Part shown: piece after piece, positions 3,744-15,987 of the stretch | How positions within the stretch are numbered: position 1 is the stretch's first letter | Layout of the letters: every line of letters starts with the position of its first letter | Source: a virus | IMG/VR virus record: IMGVR_UViG_3300035698_020835 | Span: 1 to 37,658 of that record | Length of the DNA stretch: 37,658 bases | Reading direction: 5' to 3' (one strand) | Translations under genes and position numbers: made by a program | The notes under the pieces: model-generated | Seen by the model: only the letters and a program-made list of their open reading frames with translations | What the model was told of the DNA's origin: nothing | Database searches by the model: none

Positions 3744-4126
3744 AACCCCTCCTTAATGAGATCATCGAGTGATCGAATAATAAGATACCGACCGCCGTGG
3801 TCAACCAAATCCTTTTCGAAAAGTTTCTGCTCGTCTGACTGCCGCCCGGTTGGCGTCTTTACCTCAAACGCGTAAAACTGAGTGTGACGTATCAGGTGAG
3901 TGTGCTCCGTGTAGATTTCTGTTTTCAAGAGCATGATGTCGGGAACACCTTTGCGGGAATGTTGAGCGCTTGCCCAAAACTCACGGCCTGTCTTTTTGTC
4001 CAGCCGCTTAACGCCCGTGTTGTTTTGCCTCCAAAAGAAATATTTTTTAAGAGCTAGATACTCGCAGCACGCCGTAACGATTGGCGATTCCGTTCTGCGC
4101 GTAATCCTCGTGTTTCTGCTTTTCAT
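3740..4126 (-). CDS. VRR-NUC domain endonuclease
   Basis: A 128-residue protein with the VRR-NUC form of the PD-(D/E)XK fold: an N-terminal Glu (E13 in TESPI), then GVPDIML with D63, FEVKTPTGRQ with E88 and K90, and SDEQKLF with Q100. Phage proteins of this family are small stand-alone nucleases of the replication/recombination module. In-frame sequence extends upstream to 4192, but the start is placed at ATG 4126 because AAGGAG sits 5-6 bases before it, and the family usually begins close to this residue. It is the last gene of the leftward cluster and is convergent with the 33-residue gene. Confidence 0.85.
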   Translation of the reverse strand: MKSRNTRITRRTESPIVTACCEYLALKKYFFWRQNNTGVKRLDKKTGREFWASAQHSRKGVPDIMLLKTEIYTEHTHLIRHTQFYAFEVKTPTGRQSDEQKLFEKDLVDHGGRYLIIRSLDDLIKEGF

Positions 4127-4203
4127 AAATCTCCTTACCTTTCTTGAGATGTTTCTATAAAAGCCGTAGAGAGGATCCCGGTAGGGCCTCATTAAAGATC
4201 GAA

Positions 4204-4413
4204 CTATTTTTGTTCCGGTTTTGGGTAATAGGTATAGATGTACTTTTTCTTTTCAGACGTACAGAACGATCCTCTTATGTCATAACCTTTTGCTTTAAGC
4301 TCTTTGATCCGTACCGGATACTGAAAAATTGCAGGCTGAAGAGCTCTGAGTTCTTGGTTTGAAATGGATCGTTTTGCTTCGAAGAGTGCTAAAAGGGTTT
4401 CTTGCTGTGACAT
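4204..4413 (-). CDS. Small helix-turn-helix protein
   Basis: A 69-residue protein beginning MSQQETLLALF, preceded by GAGGTG at a good distance from the ATG. The order is helix (ETLLALFEA), SISNQELRAL as a probable helix-turn-helix entry, RIKELKAKGYDI as the probable recognition helix and wing, and a basic C-terminus. This pattern occurs in short phage winged-helix proteins near replication genes. It could be a DNA-binding accessory or a small regulator; no partner is visible. Not assigned to a named family. Confidence 0.6.
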   Translation of the reverse strand: MSQQETLLALFEAKRSISNQELRALQPAIFQYPVRIKELKAKGYDIRGSFCTSEKKKYIYTYYPKPEQK

Positions 4414-4460
4414 TGTTCACCTCATCTCGGGGGAGGGGGAAGGGTGCCGCCCACTAACGG

Positions 4461-4492
4461 TACGCGCTAGGAACCCCCGGACCTTACGCGTA
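4461..4492 (-). other. Intergenic stem-loop
   Basis: TACGCG (4461-4466) and CGCGTA (4487-4492) form a perfect 6-bp inverted repeat, with a partly paired inner stem (AGG/CCT). It lies in the 108-base gap between two minus-strand genes, the longest gap inside this cluster. There is no T-run, so it is not an intrinsic terminator. It could be an mRNA processing or stability element. Strand is assumed from the surrounding transcription. Confidence 0.35.
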
Positions 4493-4521
4493 GCTCCCTG
4501 GAACAAGCCACCCTTATTTTG

Positions 4522-10988: not shown

Positions 10989-12275
10989 ATGAACCTGAGA
11001 ATTTCCGGGATTAAAATTGACCTCGTTCTCGTCCTACTTGGACTCTCCCCGCTTTTCTACTACATGGATCAATTAAACCCAAACATTCGATTGCAACAAA
11101 TTAGTTTCTTTTTGTACATGACCGTGTTGTTTGTTGCGGTAATGCACAACAATAAACTTATTGGCGCGTTCCTCCTTCTCTCCGCTGCCCATCTTTTCAT
11201 GTTTGGACCATCAGAATTTTATGTAGACAAGATGATCTTCCTTACGTGCGGGGCATTGATCTTTCACGCTGTAGCTTCTGGTTATGATGGGAAATATTGG
11301 CGGCATATTCTCCTTGCTGTGCTTGTGGTGAACCTCGTGCTCTCTTTGCTTCAGATGCAAGGAAAAGACATTTTTTTCTTCCAAAACCAAGAGGCGTCAG
11401 GTTTCTTCACATTGCCTAGTTATATGGGCATTTATGCCGCTGTGACCGCGCCGGTGCTTTTCACGCTCACGCCTTGGGCTCTTGTGCTCTCCGTAGGGGC
11501 GGTGCTACTTTCAAAGTCAATCTTTTCCTGTGTTGCGCTTGCGCTTGGGATGGGCTACTTTTTCACGCAGAGATACAAATTTCGCCCAACCCTTTATTTA
11601 TGCCTATTTATCGGGGCAATTGCTGGACTAATATTTTTGGTTGCGGTGAAGGACTCGTCCACTGGCCAATGGAGTCGGCGGGGCATGGTTTGGAAGATGG
11701 TTGCATCAAAGGCATTCAGGAGCCCATTTATTGGACACGGTGTAGGGAGCTATCAAAAAACAATGTTCATCGAGTTCCGAGGCCACGAGAACACTTATTT
11801 CCAAGTGAATGTCAAACCTGAGAATGAGGAACCTCTCAAAGCAAAGATCCTTGAAATTGCTCATGCCAACGGCACCGACACATCAAGGATTGAATCAATT
11901 CACTTTAAGCAACCCGGCGGTGTGTTCCATAATTTAAAGTTCATCATGGATGACTTGCGCGGAAAAAAAGAGAATGGTTTGCATGGATACATCTGGGATC
12001 ATCCGCATAATGAATACTTGAAAGTGTTTTACGAACATGGACTTTTGGGGTTACTGCTTGTTTTATTATTGGTGCGCCGGTGGGTTTTTAAGAATACAAG
12101 CGGCACAAGAATACTTGTTTTCTCATACAAACAACTTACCGAGCTAAGTGCGCTTAGAGCGAGTGCGCTTGCCATTGCTATCGTGAGCGTTGCTCATTTC
12201 CCTTTTCACATCCCGCGATTAGCTGCTATCATTATTTTTTTACTTGCAAAACTTGACTCTAAATTTAAACCATGA
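10989..12275 (+). CDS. O-antigen ligase/polymerase-like membrane protein
   Basis: A 428-residue polytopic membrane protein with about 10 hydrophobic segments. A large soluble loop at about residues 225-350 begins with the family landmark RGMVWKMVASKAF...GHGVGSYQ and ends with WDHPHNEYLKVFYEHGLLGL. This is the conserved Arg and the H-N-x-Y-L ... E-x-G pattern of Wzy/WaaL-type proteins. Cellular members polymerise or ligate O-antigen at the periplasmic face. In a phage it could alter the host surface and exclude other phages. AAGGA precedes the ATG at a good distance. It opens the rightward cluster and its stop overlaps an ATG (ATGA). Which of the two reactions it performs is not decidable. Confidence 0.78.
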   Translation: MNLRISGIKIDLVLVLLGLSPLFYYMDQLNPNIRLQQISFFLYMTVLFVAVMHNNKLIGAFLLLSAAHLFMFGPSEFYVDKMIFLTCGALIFHAVASGYDGKYWRHILLAVLVVNLVLSLLQMQGKDIFFFQNQEASGFFTLPSYMGIYAAVTAPVLFTLTPWALVLSVGAVLLSKSIFSCVALALGMGYFFTQRYKFRPTLYLCLFIGAIAGLIFLVAVKDSSTGQWSRRGMVWKMVASKAFRSPFIGHGVGSYQKTMFIEFRGHENTYFQVNVKPENEEPLKAKILEIAHANGTDTSRIESIHFKQPGGVFHNLKFIMDDLRGKKENGLHGYIWDHPHNEYLKVFYEHGLLGLLLVLLLVRRWVFKNTSGTRILVFSYKQLTELSALRASALAIAIVSVAHFPFHIPRLAAIIIFLLAKLDSKFKP

Positions 12276-12690: not shown

Positions 12691-13164
12691 ATGAAAAGAA
12701 AACCTAAGATTCTCTCAACTCGTCAAAAGAAACTCATCGCTGAGATAAAGCGCCAACTCGCCGATGGTGAAGACATCAACATAACTACCGCTGGAAAAGT
12801 GGCAGGATACGCCTCTCCTTCAAACTCACACGACGCCGTAAAATCAAGCAACGTTCAGGACCGTCTTAAGGATTTCTATGAAACTTTGAGCAGTCAGGGA
12901 GCCACAGACGAAAAGGCCGCACGCGTTGTTGCTGAAGCCATGGACGCGGGCTCAGTGACCATCAAGACAATTCGCTCAAAAGGGAAGCCAAAAAATCGCA
13001 AGATTATTGTGGCAGACCACGGCACGCGGCTTCGCGCTGCAGAACTCTACACAAAGATTAGAAGATTGCTAATTCCTGTGACGGGAAAAATTGAAGTGGC
13101 GACAGAAGAGGGCGGAAGAACTGTGATTGTGGTAGGTGGCGCCGGACTGGATGAAATATTATGA
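12691..13164 (+). CDS. Terminase small subunit-like protein
   Basis: A 157-residue protein beginning MKRKPKILSTRQKKL. The N-terminal part (TTAGKVAGYASPSNSHDAVK) reads as a helix-turn-helix of the terminase-small type. The segment VADHGTRLRAAELYTKIRRL matches the 'DHxxRlkAaEl' helix common in phage small terminases, and the C-terminus is a short beta region. It is expected to bind the packaging site and recruit the large subunit encoded two genes downstream. No clear ribosome site precedes the ATG. The stop overlaps the next ATG (ATGA at 13161-13164). Confidence 0.7.
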   Translation: MKRKPKILSTRQKKLIAEIKRQLADGEDINITTAGKVAGYASPSNSHDAVKSSNVQDRLKDFYETLSSQGATDEKAARVVAEAMDAGSVTIKTIRSKGKPKNRKIIVADHGTRLRAAELYTKIRRLLIPVTGKIEVATEEGGRTVIVVGGAGLDEIL

Positions 13165-13727
13165 GCGATCTACAAAAAGACCTAGAGCAAGTATTTCTTG
13201 AAGAACTCAACAACAACTCAAGCCTTGAATATTCAGGGCATGCAGAACGGCTCGCGCAAAAAGCAATTGCATTCTTTCAACCCAGCGTGGACGCGTTTAT
13301 TGAACAAGCAGAACAAAACAAGTTCCTAACCTCCGCGACAGTGATCGCGCAGTGGCACCGGGCAATCACGCTGATTCGAGATATGGAAGAGGCGCTCTAC
13401 TTGCTTCCCATTTACACCGTTCCAAATGGTGAGCTCGCGGTAAGGTGCAAGGAGAACATAGGGAAGTTCTTTGATTACGGCCCGAACAAAAGCCTTCATG
13501 CAGTTATCTTGAAGGTCATCACTTCCAAAGCACTCCTGAGGGATGTTTATTATTTCCTTGAGTCGTTGATCAAACAATCCCAGAAAGCGGTAAAGCACGC
13601 AGAAGAACCCACCAAATCATATATCGAGAATCGCATTGAGATTATGGGAGACCTGAAGCAAGGAGTCTCAGAGATTATGGCGGCGGCGGGGGTTCTTGGT
13701 GACAATCTCGAAGAGCCTGAGAGTTAA
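13161..13727 (+). CDS. Hypothetical helical protein between the terminase genes
   Basis: A 188-residue, mainly helical acidic protein starting MSDLQKDLEQVFLEEL. It overlaps the small-terminase gene by four bases and the large-terminase frame by about 30 bases, so all three are probably translated as a unit. No motif identifies it. A packaging or DNA-processing accessory role is suggested by position only. Confidence 0.65.
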   Translation: MSDLQKDLEQVFLEELNNNSSLEYSGHAERLAQKAIAFFQPSVDAFIEQAEQNKFLTSATVIAQWHRAITLIRDMEEALYLLPIYTVPNGELAVRCKENIGKFFDYGPNKSLHAVILKVITSKALLRDVYYFLESLIKQSQKAVKHAEEPTKSYIENRIEIMGDLKQGVSEIMAAAGVLGDNLEEPES

Positions 13728-15987
13728 TGCCAATGACACAGTATGGGAAGGCCAGCCCCGCCAGTTAAAGTTTCTTTATTCGCAGTGCGATGAAGCGTTT
13801 TATGGGGGAGCCGCGGGCGGTGGTAAGTCTGACGCGATCCTCGCATTTAATATCTGCAGAAGAAAAAAATACCCAGGATCCAAAGGTCTCATCCTTAGAC
13901 GCACCATCACAGAACTTCAAAAAGAAGGTTCACTCATCCCAAGGAGTCATGAACTTCTTGGGCTCCCTGAATGGAAGTGGAACGAGCAAAAGAAGAAGTG
14001 GACCGACAGAAACAATGGCGTCATTGAGTTTGGCTACTGCAAGAATGAGAAAGATGTTTACAAGTATCAATCCTCCGCCTTTGATGACATCTCATTTGAT
14101 GAGCTTACCCATTTCACAGAGTTTCAATACACCTACCTAAAGACAAGAGCTCGCTCTATTCGTGGTGTGCCAGTGGCAATCCGCTCTGCCTCAAACCCTG
14201 GCAATGTAGGGCACCTCTGGGTTAAGGATAGATTCATTGATCCATTTCCACTCGGCGAACAAATCATCTCTGAGCCCATCATAAATCCACTTACCAAAGA
14301 AACAGAATATCGTACACGAACCTATATTCCCGCGAAGGTATGGGATAACAGCAAGCTTCTTGAAAAAGATCCAAATTACCTTCTTGCGCTTCAATCCATG
14401 CCGGAAGCCATAAGAACCGCTTTGCTTGATGGTGATTGGAACACGTTTGCAGGGCAATATTTTGGAGAGTTCAAGACAAAGACTCATGTCATAAGACCCT
14501 TCAAGATTCCTGTTGAATGGCCAAGATACATCACGATGGATTGGGGCATGGCGAAACCTGCTTGTTTATTATGGATTGCTGTGGCCCCCACGGGTAGAGC
14601 CTATGTTTACCGGGAAATCTATTGCACCAACAAAATCTCATCTGTTGTGGCAAAAGAAATGAAACGCTTCGTGGATGCAGATGAAAACATGGGCGCTAAA
14701 TATTATGGGTGGCTTGCAGACCCATCAATATTTTCAAAGAAAGGTGAGGCGTCTGGATCAATTGCAAGCACGTTTAAGAAAGTTCTTGGCCGTCAGTTTA
14801 GACCTGCAAAGAATCAACGCGTGCAAGGCTGGAATCGTTTACGGGAGTGGTTCGCGCTTGCGCCTGACGGTCTTCCGTGGATACAATTCTTTTCAACCTG
14901 TGCGAACTCAATCAGAACCATCCCTGGGTTAATTCATGATGATCTTCATCCAGAGGATGTTGACACGGATGGAGAGGATCATTGCTTTACAGGAGAGACA
15001 AGGATTGGCTGTCTGTTTCGGAAAATAAAGATCAAGGATATGGTGGGAAGAAAATATTATGTTGCGACAACAAAAGGTTATAGAAAATGCCGGAGTGTTC
15101 GCCGTACTCGCGTGAGCAAGGTATGGGAGGTTACATTTGAGGATGGATCAAGCCTTAAAGCAACACCTGATCATAGGTTTCTAACACAGCGCGGTTGGAA
15201 GCATTTAAAAGAAATTAAGATAGAATCCGACGTTCTGATACAATCAGATACTTCATGTATAAAGTTATCTCTAAAACTATCCAAGAATTTAATGGAATCC
15301 GTTATTACTTGTGCGGACAATATTTTCAAAAAAAAGGTAGTCGGCTTCATCTTCAAGTTTGGAAAGACGCCCACGGAAAAATCAAGAAGGGGTTTTGCGT
15401 CCATCACAAGAATGAGAACCGCTCCGACAACAGGATTGAAAATCTACAGCTCATGTCAAACTTTGAGCATGCATCCCACCACAGCAAAGCACCCGCTAAC
15501 ATCAAACGAATCATGGAGATATTATTTACCAAGGCTCAACCAGCAGCCGCGAAGTGGCACGGATCTGAAGCAGGAAGGAAATGGCATGCCCTCCATTCAA
15601 AAAAAGTGTGGAAGAACATGGCCTTGGTTGAAAAGGTTTGTGTGGTGTGCGGCGCGAGCTACAAAACGCCAATTTCACGCCGTTCGCTTTCAAAATACTG
15701 CCATGCGAATTGTAAAGCTACAGCCCTCAGGAGAAGAAGAGGTATACAACCTCACCGTCCCGCACGTAAAAAACTACACCGTTGAGAACGGAGTCATTGT
15801 CCATAACTGTGGGGATGCAATGAGATACTTCGCTGTGACGAAACCTAAGATCATTAAAAACAAACCAACCCCCGACATTTCAAGGCTTGCATTACGAGAT
15901 CAAGCGCGTATTGACCGTGAAGAAAAGAAGAAAGAAACCGCACAACAATCAAAAGGTGTCAAAAGCTTTCTTGATACTCTAAGCTAG
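13696..15987 (+). CDS. terL: Large terminase subunit containing an intein
   Basis: The precursor is 763 residues. Removing the 275-residue intein leaves 488, a normal terminase size. ATPase: Walker A GGAAGGGKS (37-45), RR at 68-69, and Walker B ISFDE with D135 and E136. Nuclease (RNase H-like): first Asp in YITMDWGMAKP, second in YGWLADPS, third in CGDAMRYF (D707), immediately after the intein. It drives packaging and cuts the DNA. The exteins join as GEDH | CGDAMRYF, matching the usual ED-H-x-x-D-A-x-R-Y signature. The start is TTG 13696 or GTG 13699, inside the end of the previous gene; no ATG occurs before the Walker A. A separate HNH gene lies in another frame within the intein. Confidence 0.92.
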   Translation: MVTISKSLRVNANDTVWEGQPRQLKFLYSQCDEAFYGGAAGGGKSDAILAFNICRRKKYPGSKGLILRRTITELQKEGSLIPRSHELLGLPEWKWNEQKKKWTDRNNGVIEFGYCKNEKDVYKYQSSAFDDISFDELTHFTEFQYTYLKTRARSIRGVPVAIRSASNPGNVGHLWVKDRFIDPFPLGEQIISEPIINPLTKETEYRTRTYIPAKVWDNSKLLEKDPNYLLALQSMPEAIRTALLDGDWNTFAGQYFGEFKTKTHVIRPFKIPVEWPRYITMDWGMAKPACLLWIAVAPTGRAYVYREIYCTNKISSVVAKEMKRFVDADENMGAKYYGWLADPSIFSKKGEASGSIASTFKKVLGRQFRPAKNQRVQGWNRLREWFALAPDGLPWIQFFSTCANSIRTIPGLIHDDLHPEDVDTDGEDHCFTGETRIGCLFRKIKIKDMVGRKYYVATTKGYRKCRSVRRTRVSKVWEVTFEDGSSLKATPDHRFLTQRGWKHLKEIKIESDVLIQSDTSCIKLSLKLSKNLMESVITCADNIFKKKVVGFIFKFGKTPTEKSRRGFASITRMRTAPTTGLKIYSSCQTLSMHPTTAKHPLTSNESWRYYLPRLNQQPRSGTDLKQEGNGMPSIQKKCGRTWPWLKRFVWCAARATKRQFHAVRFQNTAMRIVKLQPSGEEEVYNLTVPHVKNYTVENGVIVHNCGDAMRYFAVTKPKIIKNKPTPDISRLALRDQARIDREEKKKETAQQSKGVKSFLDTLS
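14983..15807 (+). mobile_element. Intein in terL, residues 430-704, with foreign-frame insert
   Basis: Splicing elements are all visible. Block A begins at Cys430 (CFTGETRIG). Block B contains KATPDHRFLTQRGW, with the T-x-x-H motif. Block F is VYNLTVPHVKNYTV. Block G is VIVHN, with penultimate His703 and terminal Asn704, and the +1 residue is Cys705. Residues of about 521-669 have a Ser/Lys/Arg-rich composition with no endonuclease motifs; this is the stretch where another frame encodes an HNH endonuclease. The element is therefore a mini-intein whose linker is the shadow translation of an inserted gene. It should be splicing-competent, but activity is not shown. Confidence 0.88.
15255..15785 (+). 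CDS. HNH homing endonuclease, nested out of frame in the intein
   Basis: A 176-residue protein in the -1 frame relative to terL. The N-terminal part (NGIRYYLCGQYFQKKGSRLH) and the catalytic region VHHKNENRSDNRIENLQL...EHASHH give a complete HNH motif: H50-H51, N59/N63 and H72. A helical K-WHGSEAGRKWH segment typical of phage HNH enzymes follows. A C-terminal zinc finger (C129-x2-C132 ... C149-x3-C153) and an Arg-rich tail complete it. The gene ends at TGA 15783-15785, inside intein block F, so its last 27 codons are dual coding with a conserved intein region. ATG 15255 has no obvious ribosome site; translation could be independent or arise by -1 frameshifting. It would cut intein-less terL alleles to spread the element. 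Confidence 0.85.
   Translation: MYKVISKTIQEFNGIRYYLCGQYFQKKGSRLHLQVWKDAHGKIKKGFCVHHKNENRSDNRIENLQLMSNFEHASHHSKAPANIKRIMEILFTKAQPAAAKWHGSEAGRKWHALHSKKVWKNMALVEKVCVVCGASYKTPISRRSLSKYCHANCKATALRRRRGIQPHRPARKKLHR

Follow-up and report, generated by a model that had tools for sequence, protein, structure and literature searches.

We analysed a virus record of 37,658 bases (IMGVR_UViG_3300035698_020835; this whole stretch is called the window below), in which the gene for the terminase large subunit (terL) is interrupted by an intein, and the intein is in turn overlapped by an HNH endonuclease gene read in a different frame. The terL gene is one uninterrupted reading frame, and the HNH gene lies inside it in the -1 frame, so that the intein frame runs through the HNH gene as a stretch that we call the shadow. 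The features of the locus are as follows.

13696-15987, + strand: terL open reading frame (ORF), single and uninterrupted.
13696..14982, + strand: terL N-extein, matching the terminase large subunit family phrog_979 (expectation value, E, 5.5e-47); start codon TTG at 13696 or GTG at 13699.
14983..15807, + strand: intein of 275 aa, Cys1 to Asn275 (Cys430-Asn704 of TerL), with Pfam Intein_splicing and NCBIfam intein_Nterm/Cterm matches and a Hint fold.
15163..15174, + strand: block B T-x-x-H (TPDH); T61 and H64 are invariant in the intein alignments.
15193..15198, + strand: intein Gly-Trp (GGT TGG), which gives no start codon in the HNH frame of the window.
15247..15693, + strand: intein frame over the HNH gene, the open shadow segment; no stops, and residues 91-240 have a predicted local distance difference test score (pLDDT) of 32-58.
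15255..15785, + strand: HNH endonuclease gene (HNH_3 plus a C-terminal zinc finger), in the -1 frame relative to terL.
15345..15473, + strand: HNH_3 core, residues 31-73 (Pfam PF13392).
15639..15713, + strand: zinc-finger cysteines C129, C132, C149 and C153; the first three are invariant in the alignments and C153 is present in at least 90%.
15694..15785, + strand: dual-coding tail, where the HNH zinc-finger helix and C terminus lie over the intein strand before block F (from DSSP and pLDDT).
15802..15807, + strand: block G His-Asn (His703-Asn704), a sequence motif.
15808..15987, + strand: terL C-extein, whose first residue is the +1 Cys (Cys705); joined flanks EDHCGDAMRY.

The initial annotation, made from the sequence alone, held that the terL intein has every splicing motif, and this is borne out both by the motifs and by family matches. 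Cys1, T-x-x-H, His-Asn and the +1 Cys are all present in the window. Pfam Intein_splicing matches the region at E 7.8e-14 within TerL and at E 5.8e-15 when the intein is searched alone, and the NCBIfam models intein_Nterm and intein_Cterm match TerL residues 430-497 (E 1.8e-7) and 682-705 (E 2.7e-6). Joining the exteins gives the junction DTDGEDH/CGDAMRY, and the corresponding empty site, DTDGEDHC, is unbroken in 16 of 17 terL loci that have no HNH match, the remaining one (L028) carrying a split intein. An AlphaFold2 model of the intein was built from an alignment of 28 nested inteins. Residues 1-90 and 241-275 are confident (ten-residue pLDDT means of 81-96 and 88-95), and these parts are predicted to form a Hint domain, with residues 91-240 between them at low confidence (block means 32-58). 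Foldseek with this model returned 6frg as the best solved intein (E 1.9e-9), and comparison with 1mi8 gave a template modelling (TM) score of 0.83 by target and a root-mean-square deviation of 1.8. The intein is not split between ORFs, its N half, shadow and C half lying in one open frame (13657-15984), and it is not a canonical full-length intein with an endonuclease fused in frame, the HNH gene being in the -1 frame. The start of terL (13696-13727) overlaps the 3′ end of the preceding gene (13161-13727).

Both frames were searched with intein and HNH families, and each matches independently of the other. A complete HNH gene nested in the -1 frame had been claimed, and the searches agree: the frame matches HNH_3 (E 3.1e-14) and, over residues 5-157, phrog_15471 (E 4.5e-30), its structural model has a mean pLDDT of 92.8 with a terminal helix at residues 151-164, and the gene sits at the usual endonuclease insertion point of the intein. 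By sequence profile the best solved structure is I-HmuI (PDB 1u3e; positions 19-83, E 0.0012), and the fold search gave nothing better than E 0.08, which is weak. The intein frame is open across the HNH gene with no stops, again as claimed. The initial annotation also described about 80 bases shared by the HNH zinc finger and intein block F. Bases that serve two proteins are indeed present, but the figure becomes 83-92: the intein strand before block F is assigned from residue 238 (15694) and is confident from residue 241, and the bases that the HNH gene shares with the C-terminal splicing part begin at 15694 or 15703 and end at 15785. Of these bases, 44 (15703-15746) are confidently structured in both frames in the two models.

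To place the window among its relatives, we used a six-frame profile search to sort all loci that have an HNH match, 109 with the window included; its copy, L001, was left out of all classification counts. The main scan for HNH genes relied on a single zinc-finger pattern, and of its 201 matches only the 80 most like the window HNH were taken, so the finding that 85 of the 109 loci are nested in the -1 frame is no estimate of prevalence. The other loci are nested in the +1 frame (2), split (15) or consist of the HNH alone (7), and none has the HNH in frame; in 80 clusters at 80% identity the counts are 59 nested -1, 1 nested +1, 13 split, 7 HNH alone and 0 in frame. Because the nested class is defined by its open frame, a fairer comparison is among clusters with both intein halves in the -1 register, where 59 are open and 2 (L065 and L126) have stops between the halves. 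The +1 layout is found only in L089 and L090, and a query with the intein frame added six further loci (L134-L139), all nested -1, of which L137-L139 look alike. Nesting in the -1 frame is the commonest layout among the sampled loci. The out-of-frame nested intein of the initial annotation is thus real and recurrent, but it is not unique to the window, and a brucellaphage report of 2015 precedes it (PMC4422536). In L089 and L090 the HNH lies at 4019-4495, the compared parts are identical, and the other forward frame is stop-free (0 stops, shuffle P 0.011).

Four nested loci come from the annotated phage collection (L045, L046, L047 and L127); the carriers are Rhodobacteraceae phage LS06-2018-MD07, Tetrasphaera phage TJE1, Acinetobacter phage Highwayman and the unverified faecal clone MT838676. 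HNH genes inside terL can escape notice, as in L045-L047, the three named phages, where the HNH is unannotated and the whole region is given as one terL gene. These loci bear on the idea that the HNH domain is really in frame and was displaced by assembly or sequencing indels, an idea with nothing in its favor beyond the unusual layout itself. The same layout is present at 84 other loci, the four just named among them, and because independent loci show it a paired-indel error is very unlikely, to the point of being hardly credible. The artefact reading is weakened further by the zinc finger and the pre-block-F strand, which use the same bases, an overlap that would not result from paired indels in a fused gene.

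Related terL inteins with an in-frame, absent or nested endonuclease had been suggested as a check, and all three kinds turned up. In-frame LAGLIDADG endonucleases are found in the first terL inteins of Vibrio phage 1.238.B (L126) and Microcystis phage Mic1 (L128). Inteins without HNH are those of L129, the second intein of L128 and the split intein of L028, and L125 has only a short HNH remnant. The initial annotation counted it against nesting if the HNH frame was broken in relatives that keep the intein. L028, L125 and L129, with the HNH lost or broken, are relatives of this kind, but they are what would be expected of a homing gene that is dispensable. The same three loci, with their degenerate or absent HNH, could suggest that the window HNH is itself a decaying copy within an intein that alone is functional, and there is no close relative for gauging selection on the window copy. 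We consider this improbable given that the window ORF is full length, retains the family-invariant residues and all four zinc-finger cysteines, and is modelled at the high mean pLDDT given above. In a tree of the HNH proteins, made without L033, L066 and L014, there are repeated changes among the nested, split and free forms (10, 5 and 6 changes); the starred branches force 6, 2 and 6 changes, with bootstrap not settled. A pattern scan of genome contigs for prophage relatives gave 4 matches, none of them a relative.

Some of these loci have further features of their own. The terL of L126 (413-1417, 2702-3748) has two inteins, the second with an out-of-frame HNH and stops in the intein frame. 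In Lactobacillus phage CL2 (L053, 2487-2771) terL is split; its annotated coding sequence (CDS) stops within the N half of the intein, the HNH comes next, and most of the C half (2580-2693) lies between annotated CDSs. In Brochothrix phage BL3 (L125, 1936-2529), gp2 and gp3 resemble split-intein terL halves with the short HNH remnant between them.

Constraint in each frame was then examined in relatives, using 235 pairs of nested loci drawn from 42 loci. The ratio of nonsynonymous to synonymous change (dN/dS) in the HNH frame could be computed for 170 pairs, 64 with saturated dS and 1 with zero dS being removed, and it has a median of 0.17 and a maximum of 0.47. For the same bases read in the intein frame, the median is 1.23 and the ratio is at least 0.9 in 215 of the 235 pairs. 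What is kept in the intein frame is its freedom from stops. When the HNH protein is held fixed and its codons are drawn from terL codon usage, 3.5 stops per locus are expected in the shadow and none is observed in nested loci, so that 56 of 56 loci are stop-free compared with 4.45 expected; loci with fewer than 150 terL codons or without an N-block match were left out. Twelve split controls have 5.2 stops compared with 4.4 expected, and 1 of the 12 is open compared with 0.8 expected. Shuffling each gene's own codons, after removal of stop or N-containing codons inside the HNH match, leads to the same result: 59 of 59 nested -1 clusters are open compared with 9.4 expected, and the 7 HNH-only clusters have a mean of 4.7 stops with 1 open (1.2 expected).

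The stop avoidance is also visible in the HNH protein. A Met whose next residue is Ile, Met, Thr, Asn or Lys necessarily produces a TGA in the intein frame, and such a dipeptide occurs at 0 of 79 Met residues in nested HNHs (21.3 expected) compared with 15 of 48 in controls (12.4 expected; Fisher 9e-8). The other forward frame has a mean of 18 stops, and the use of the -1 register is explained by this load, because the -1 frame is almost stop-free. By these comparisons, both frames show selection in the relatives, which is the constraint that the initial annotation had asked about.

The start of the HNH gene leaves a mark in the intein as well. Gly-Trp follows block B in the inteins of 30 nested loci, and in all 24 where the HNH frame is open at this point the codons are GGA TGG or GGG TGG, which create an ATG or GTG in the HNH frame. 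From terL glycine usage GGA or GGG would be expected in 12.1 of the 24, and the product of the own-gene probabilities is 3e-8. Where the HNH frame is closed at Gly-Trp, 5 of 6 loci use GGT, as do 4 of 6 other loci. In 20 of the 24 open loci there is no alternative start ahead of the HNH domain. The HNH frame of the window opens only from 15219, downstream of its Gly-Trp, and its start is likely the ATG at 15255.

These observations are relevant to a programmed -1 ribosomal frameshift, which would make a fusion of the intein N half with the HNH and would explain why the register is constant (-1 in 85 of 87 contiguous nested loci) and why the window HNH has no Shine-Dalgarno sequence. A slippery heptamer in the right frame is present near the HNH start in just 6 of 59 clusters, however, and the register is already accounted for by the approximately 18 stops in the other frame. 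Split relatives show the HNH in all three frame relations to the N half, and the Gly-Trp codon choice preserves an ATG or GTG. We therefore give frameshifting a low probability and favor an HNH gene that would be initiated independently at its own start codon.

Next, we compared the intein and HNH with the terL genes that carry them. Nested pairs with HNH DNA identity of at least 75% number 44, and 29 are left after removing those with N-extein identity of at least 98.5%. In 29 of the 29 pairs the N-extein is less alike than either the intein N block or the HNH, and in 25 the gap is at least 5 points for both; in L091 and L092, for example, identity is 64% for terL, 97% for the intein N block and 95% for the HNH. 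An element that is more alike than its terL is as expected of homing. Synonymous distances concur in most of nine pairs (L002/L003: extein 1.57, intein 0.24, HNH 0.28), with L089/L090 identical in this comparison. Across 53 loci, with L014, L066, L120 and loci having fewer than 600 bases of extein left out, intein and HNH distances are correlated (Spearman 0.49; partial 0.37 given the extein), and 0 of 500 permutations are as high. These comparisons show joint transfer of intein and HNH in the relatives. The nearest intein and the nearest HNH to the window are both from L022, and the nearest terL is from L024; with its nearest HNH 54% identical, the comparison of element with host comes from relatives alone. 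In L112, L115 and L123 the synonymous distance is larger for the HNH (0.33-0.90) than for the intein N block (0.07-0.16), a pattern that would fit separate exchange of parts of the element.

The terL nuclease motif is at the insertion point in nearly all exteins, the unclear cases being L014, L100, L120 and L126, which have a truncated or partial N-block match. Among ten sampled exteins, 8 match terminase families, and L075 (46 aa long) and L122 have no PHROG match. Free-standing HNH relatives adjoin terminase genes in six named phages. This association with the terminase, both inside terL and in packaging modules, would suit an HNH protein that is a packaging cofactor of the terminase, as the literature has proposed for terminase-adjacent HNH proteins, and not a homing endonuclease. 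We regard this as highly improbable. Relatives of terL without the intein or without the HNH exist, and the element is common to diverged terL genes, both as homing predicts; the best sequence match of the HNH is the homing enzyme I-HmuI, whose fold match is weak.

Taken together, the evidence makes it very probable that the terL nuclease motif of the window is occupied by a mobile intein, and that the homing endonuclease of this intein is encoded by a gene of its own, the HNH gene, which is overprinted in the -1 frame. The sequences show the anatomy and the empty site and, for the relatives, selection on both frames as well as joint transfer of the intein with its HNH. We propose the following sequence of events. 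Ribosomes on terL would read straight through the HNH gene and add approximately 150 residues of shadow peptide, which would form a loop between the two Hint halves, and the Hint domain would then splice the intein out of TerL. The HNH protein would be made separately from the same message, using its own start codon, and would cut an intein-less terL, probably at the insertion site. Repair would then copy the whole element, intein plus HNH, into the cut terL. The -1 register would be the one in which the HNH family leaves an almost stop-free shadow. Nesting may also uncouple splicing from endonuclease dose, as the initial annotation suggested.

Several points weigh against this reading. In GC-rich phages an open shadow can arise by chance, and a single such locus is little evidence: L046 has shuffle P 0.79, and the shadow frame of the free-standing L052 is also open (P 1.0). 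For the window itself, synonymous shuffling gives P ~0.03 for a stop-free intein frame, which alone is modest evidence and becomes strong across the family, and the window is in none of the dN/dS pairs, its nearest HNH being the 54% relative already mentioned. The 24 open Gly-Trp loci form 13 clusters at 60% identity and are not independent, and neither are the 29 pairs compared for mobility, which overlap. In L075/L077 the element is no closer than its host (dS extein 0.99 over 46 codons, intein 0.83, HNH 0.96). The ATG at 15255 has no Shine-Dalgarno match (0.4 kcal/mol), a property it shares with the window ORFs at 12272, 12691, 16006 and 16781. A Shine-Dalgarno sequence as the general HNH start signal was tried and rejected, since 37% of 51 best ATGs and 29% of 78 internal ATGs reach -4 kcal/mol or lower. 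At the stricter cutoff of -7 or lower, 17 of 60 nested rows have one compared with 15 of 20 other rows.

A broader proposal, which we put forward tentatively and think less likely than not, is that overprinted inteins form a class of their own that is widespread, with the homing gene and the splicing protein tied to each other in a single register. Many members would have the Gly-Trp start codon, the dipeptides of Met with Ile, Met, Thr, Asn or Lys would have been given up, and the zinc finger would double as the strand before block F. With intein and HNH on one message, terL translation would hold down endonuclease output. A stop in the shadow would turn the element into a split intein, so the class may be a source of the split inteins of phages; L065 and L126, in which stops separate the two halves, have this form.

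Accounts of intein evolution usually treat the endonucleases as in-frame domains. Here the homing gene would be an independent gene inside the splicing domain, as homing genes are in introns, so that one stretch of DNA can hold a splicing device plus its own mobility gene. Both frames carry measurable marks (avoidance of stops and of dipeptides, and the Gly-Trp start codon), and the layout offers a testable route that links mini-inteins, mobile inteins and split inteins. Elsewhere in the window, a 1195-aa protein encoded at 55-3639 matches phrog_9854 (unknown function), with a weaker match to a large endolysin family.

Among known systems, I-HmuI is an HNH homing endonuclease that is encoded in a group I intron, and the window HNH resembles it by profile, with a weak overall fold match. 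Dassa et al. in 2009 reportedly described fractured genes in which an endonuclease ORF stands free between the two halves of a split intein. That layout is like those of L025, L032 and L053, but its halves are said to be separate proteins, whereas the intein frame of the window is continuous through the endonuclease gene. The dCTP deaminase intein of cyanophage CL131, for which self-excision is reported, combines HintN and HNH_3 in one protein (PMC6293099); both it and the window pair an intein with HNH_3, in frame in CL131 and out of frame in the window.

The arrangement itself is already known in part, and priority lies partly elsewhere. In brucellaphages a putative HNH, intein-encoded and out of frame, was described in terL (PMC4422536); that short passage does not analyse splicing blocks, register, selection or spread, and the likeness is by description, the brucellaphage records being absent from the collection searched here. 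No other intein with an out-of-frame endonuclease was found in the open-licence papers searched, among the matches listed, and these likewise gave no earlier account of the both-frame family test, the dipeptide and start-codon marks or the comparison of element with terL. A preprint on actinobacteriophage inteins with non-canonical architecture, whose title is cited in the ShiLan paper (PMC11855218), may describe the same arrangement. The ShiLan paper reports hidden out-of-frame HNH insertions in phage methylases with no intein. They are like the window in that an out-of-frame HNH lies in an insertion that is open in the frame of the host gene and spreads in a homing-like manner. They differ in having no splicing domain, the insertion being thought to be retained in the protein, whereas the window HNH is flanked by a full Hint domain.

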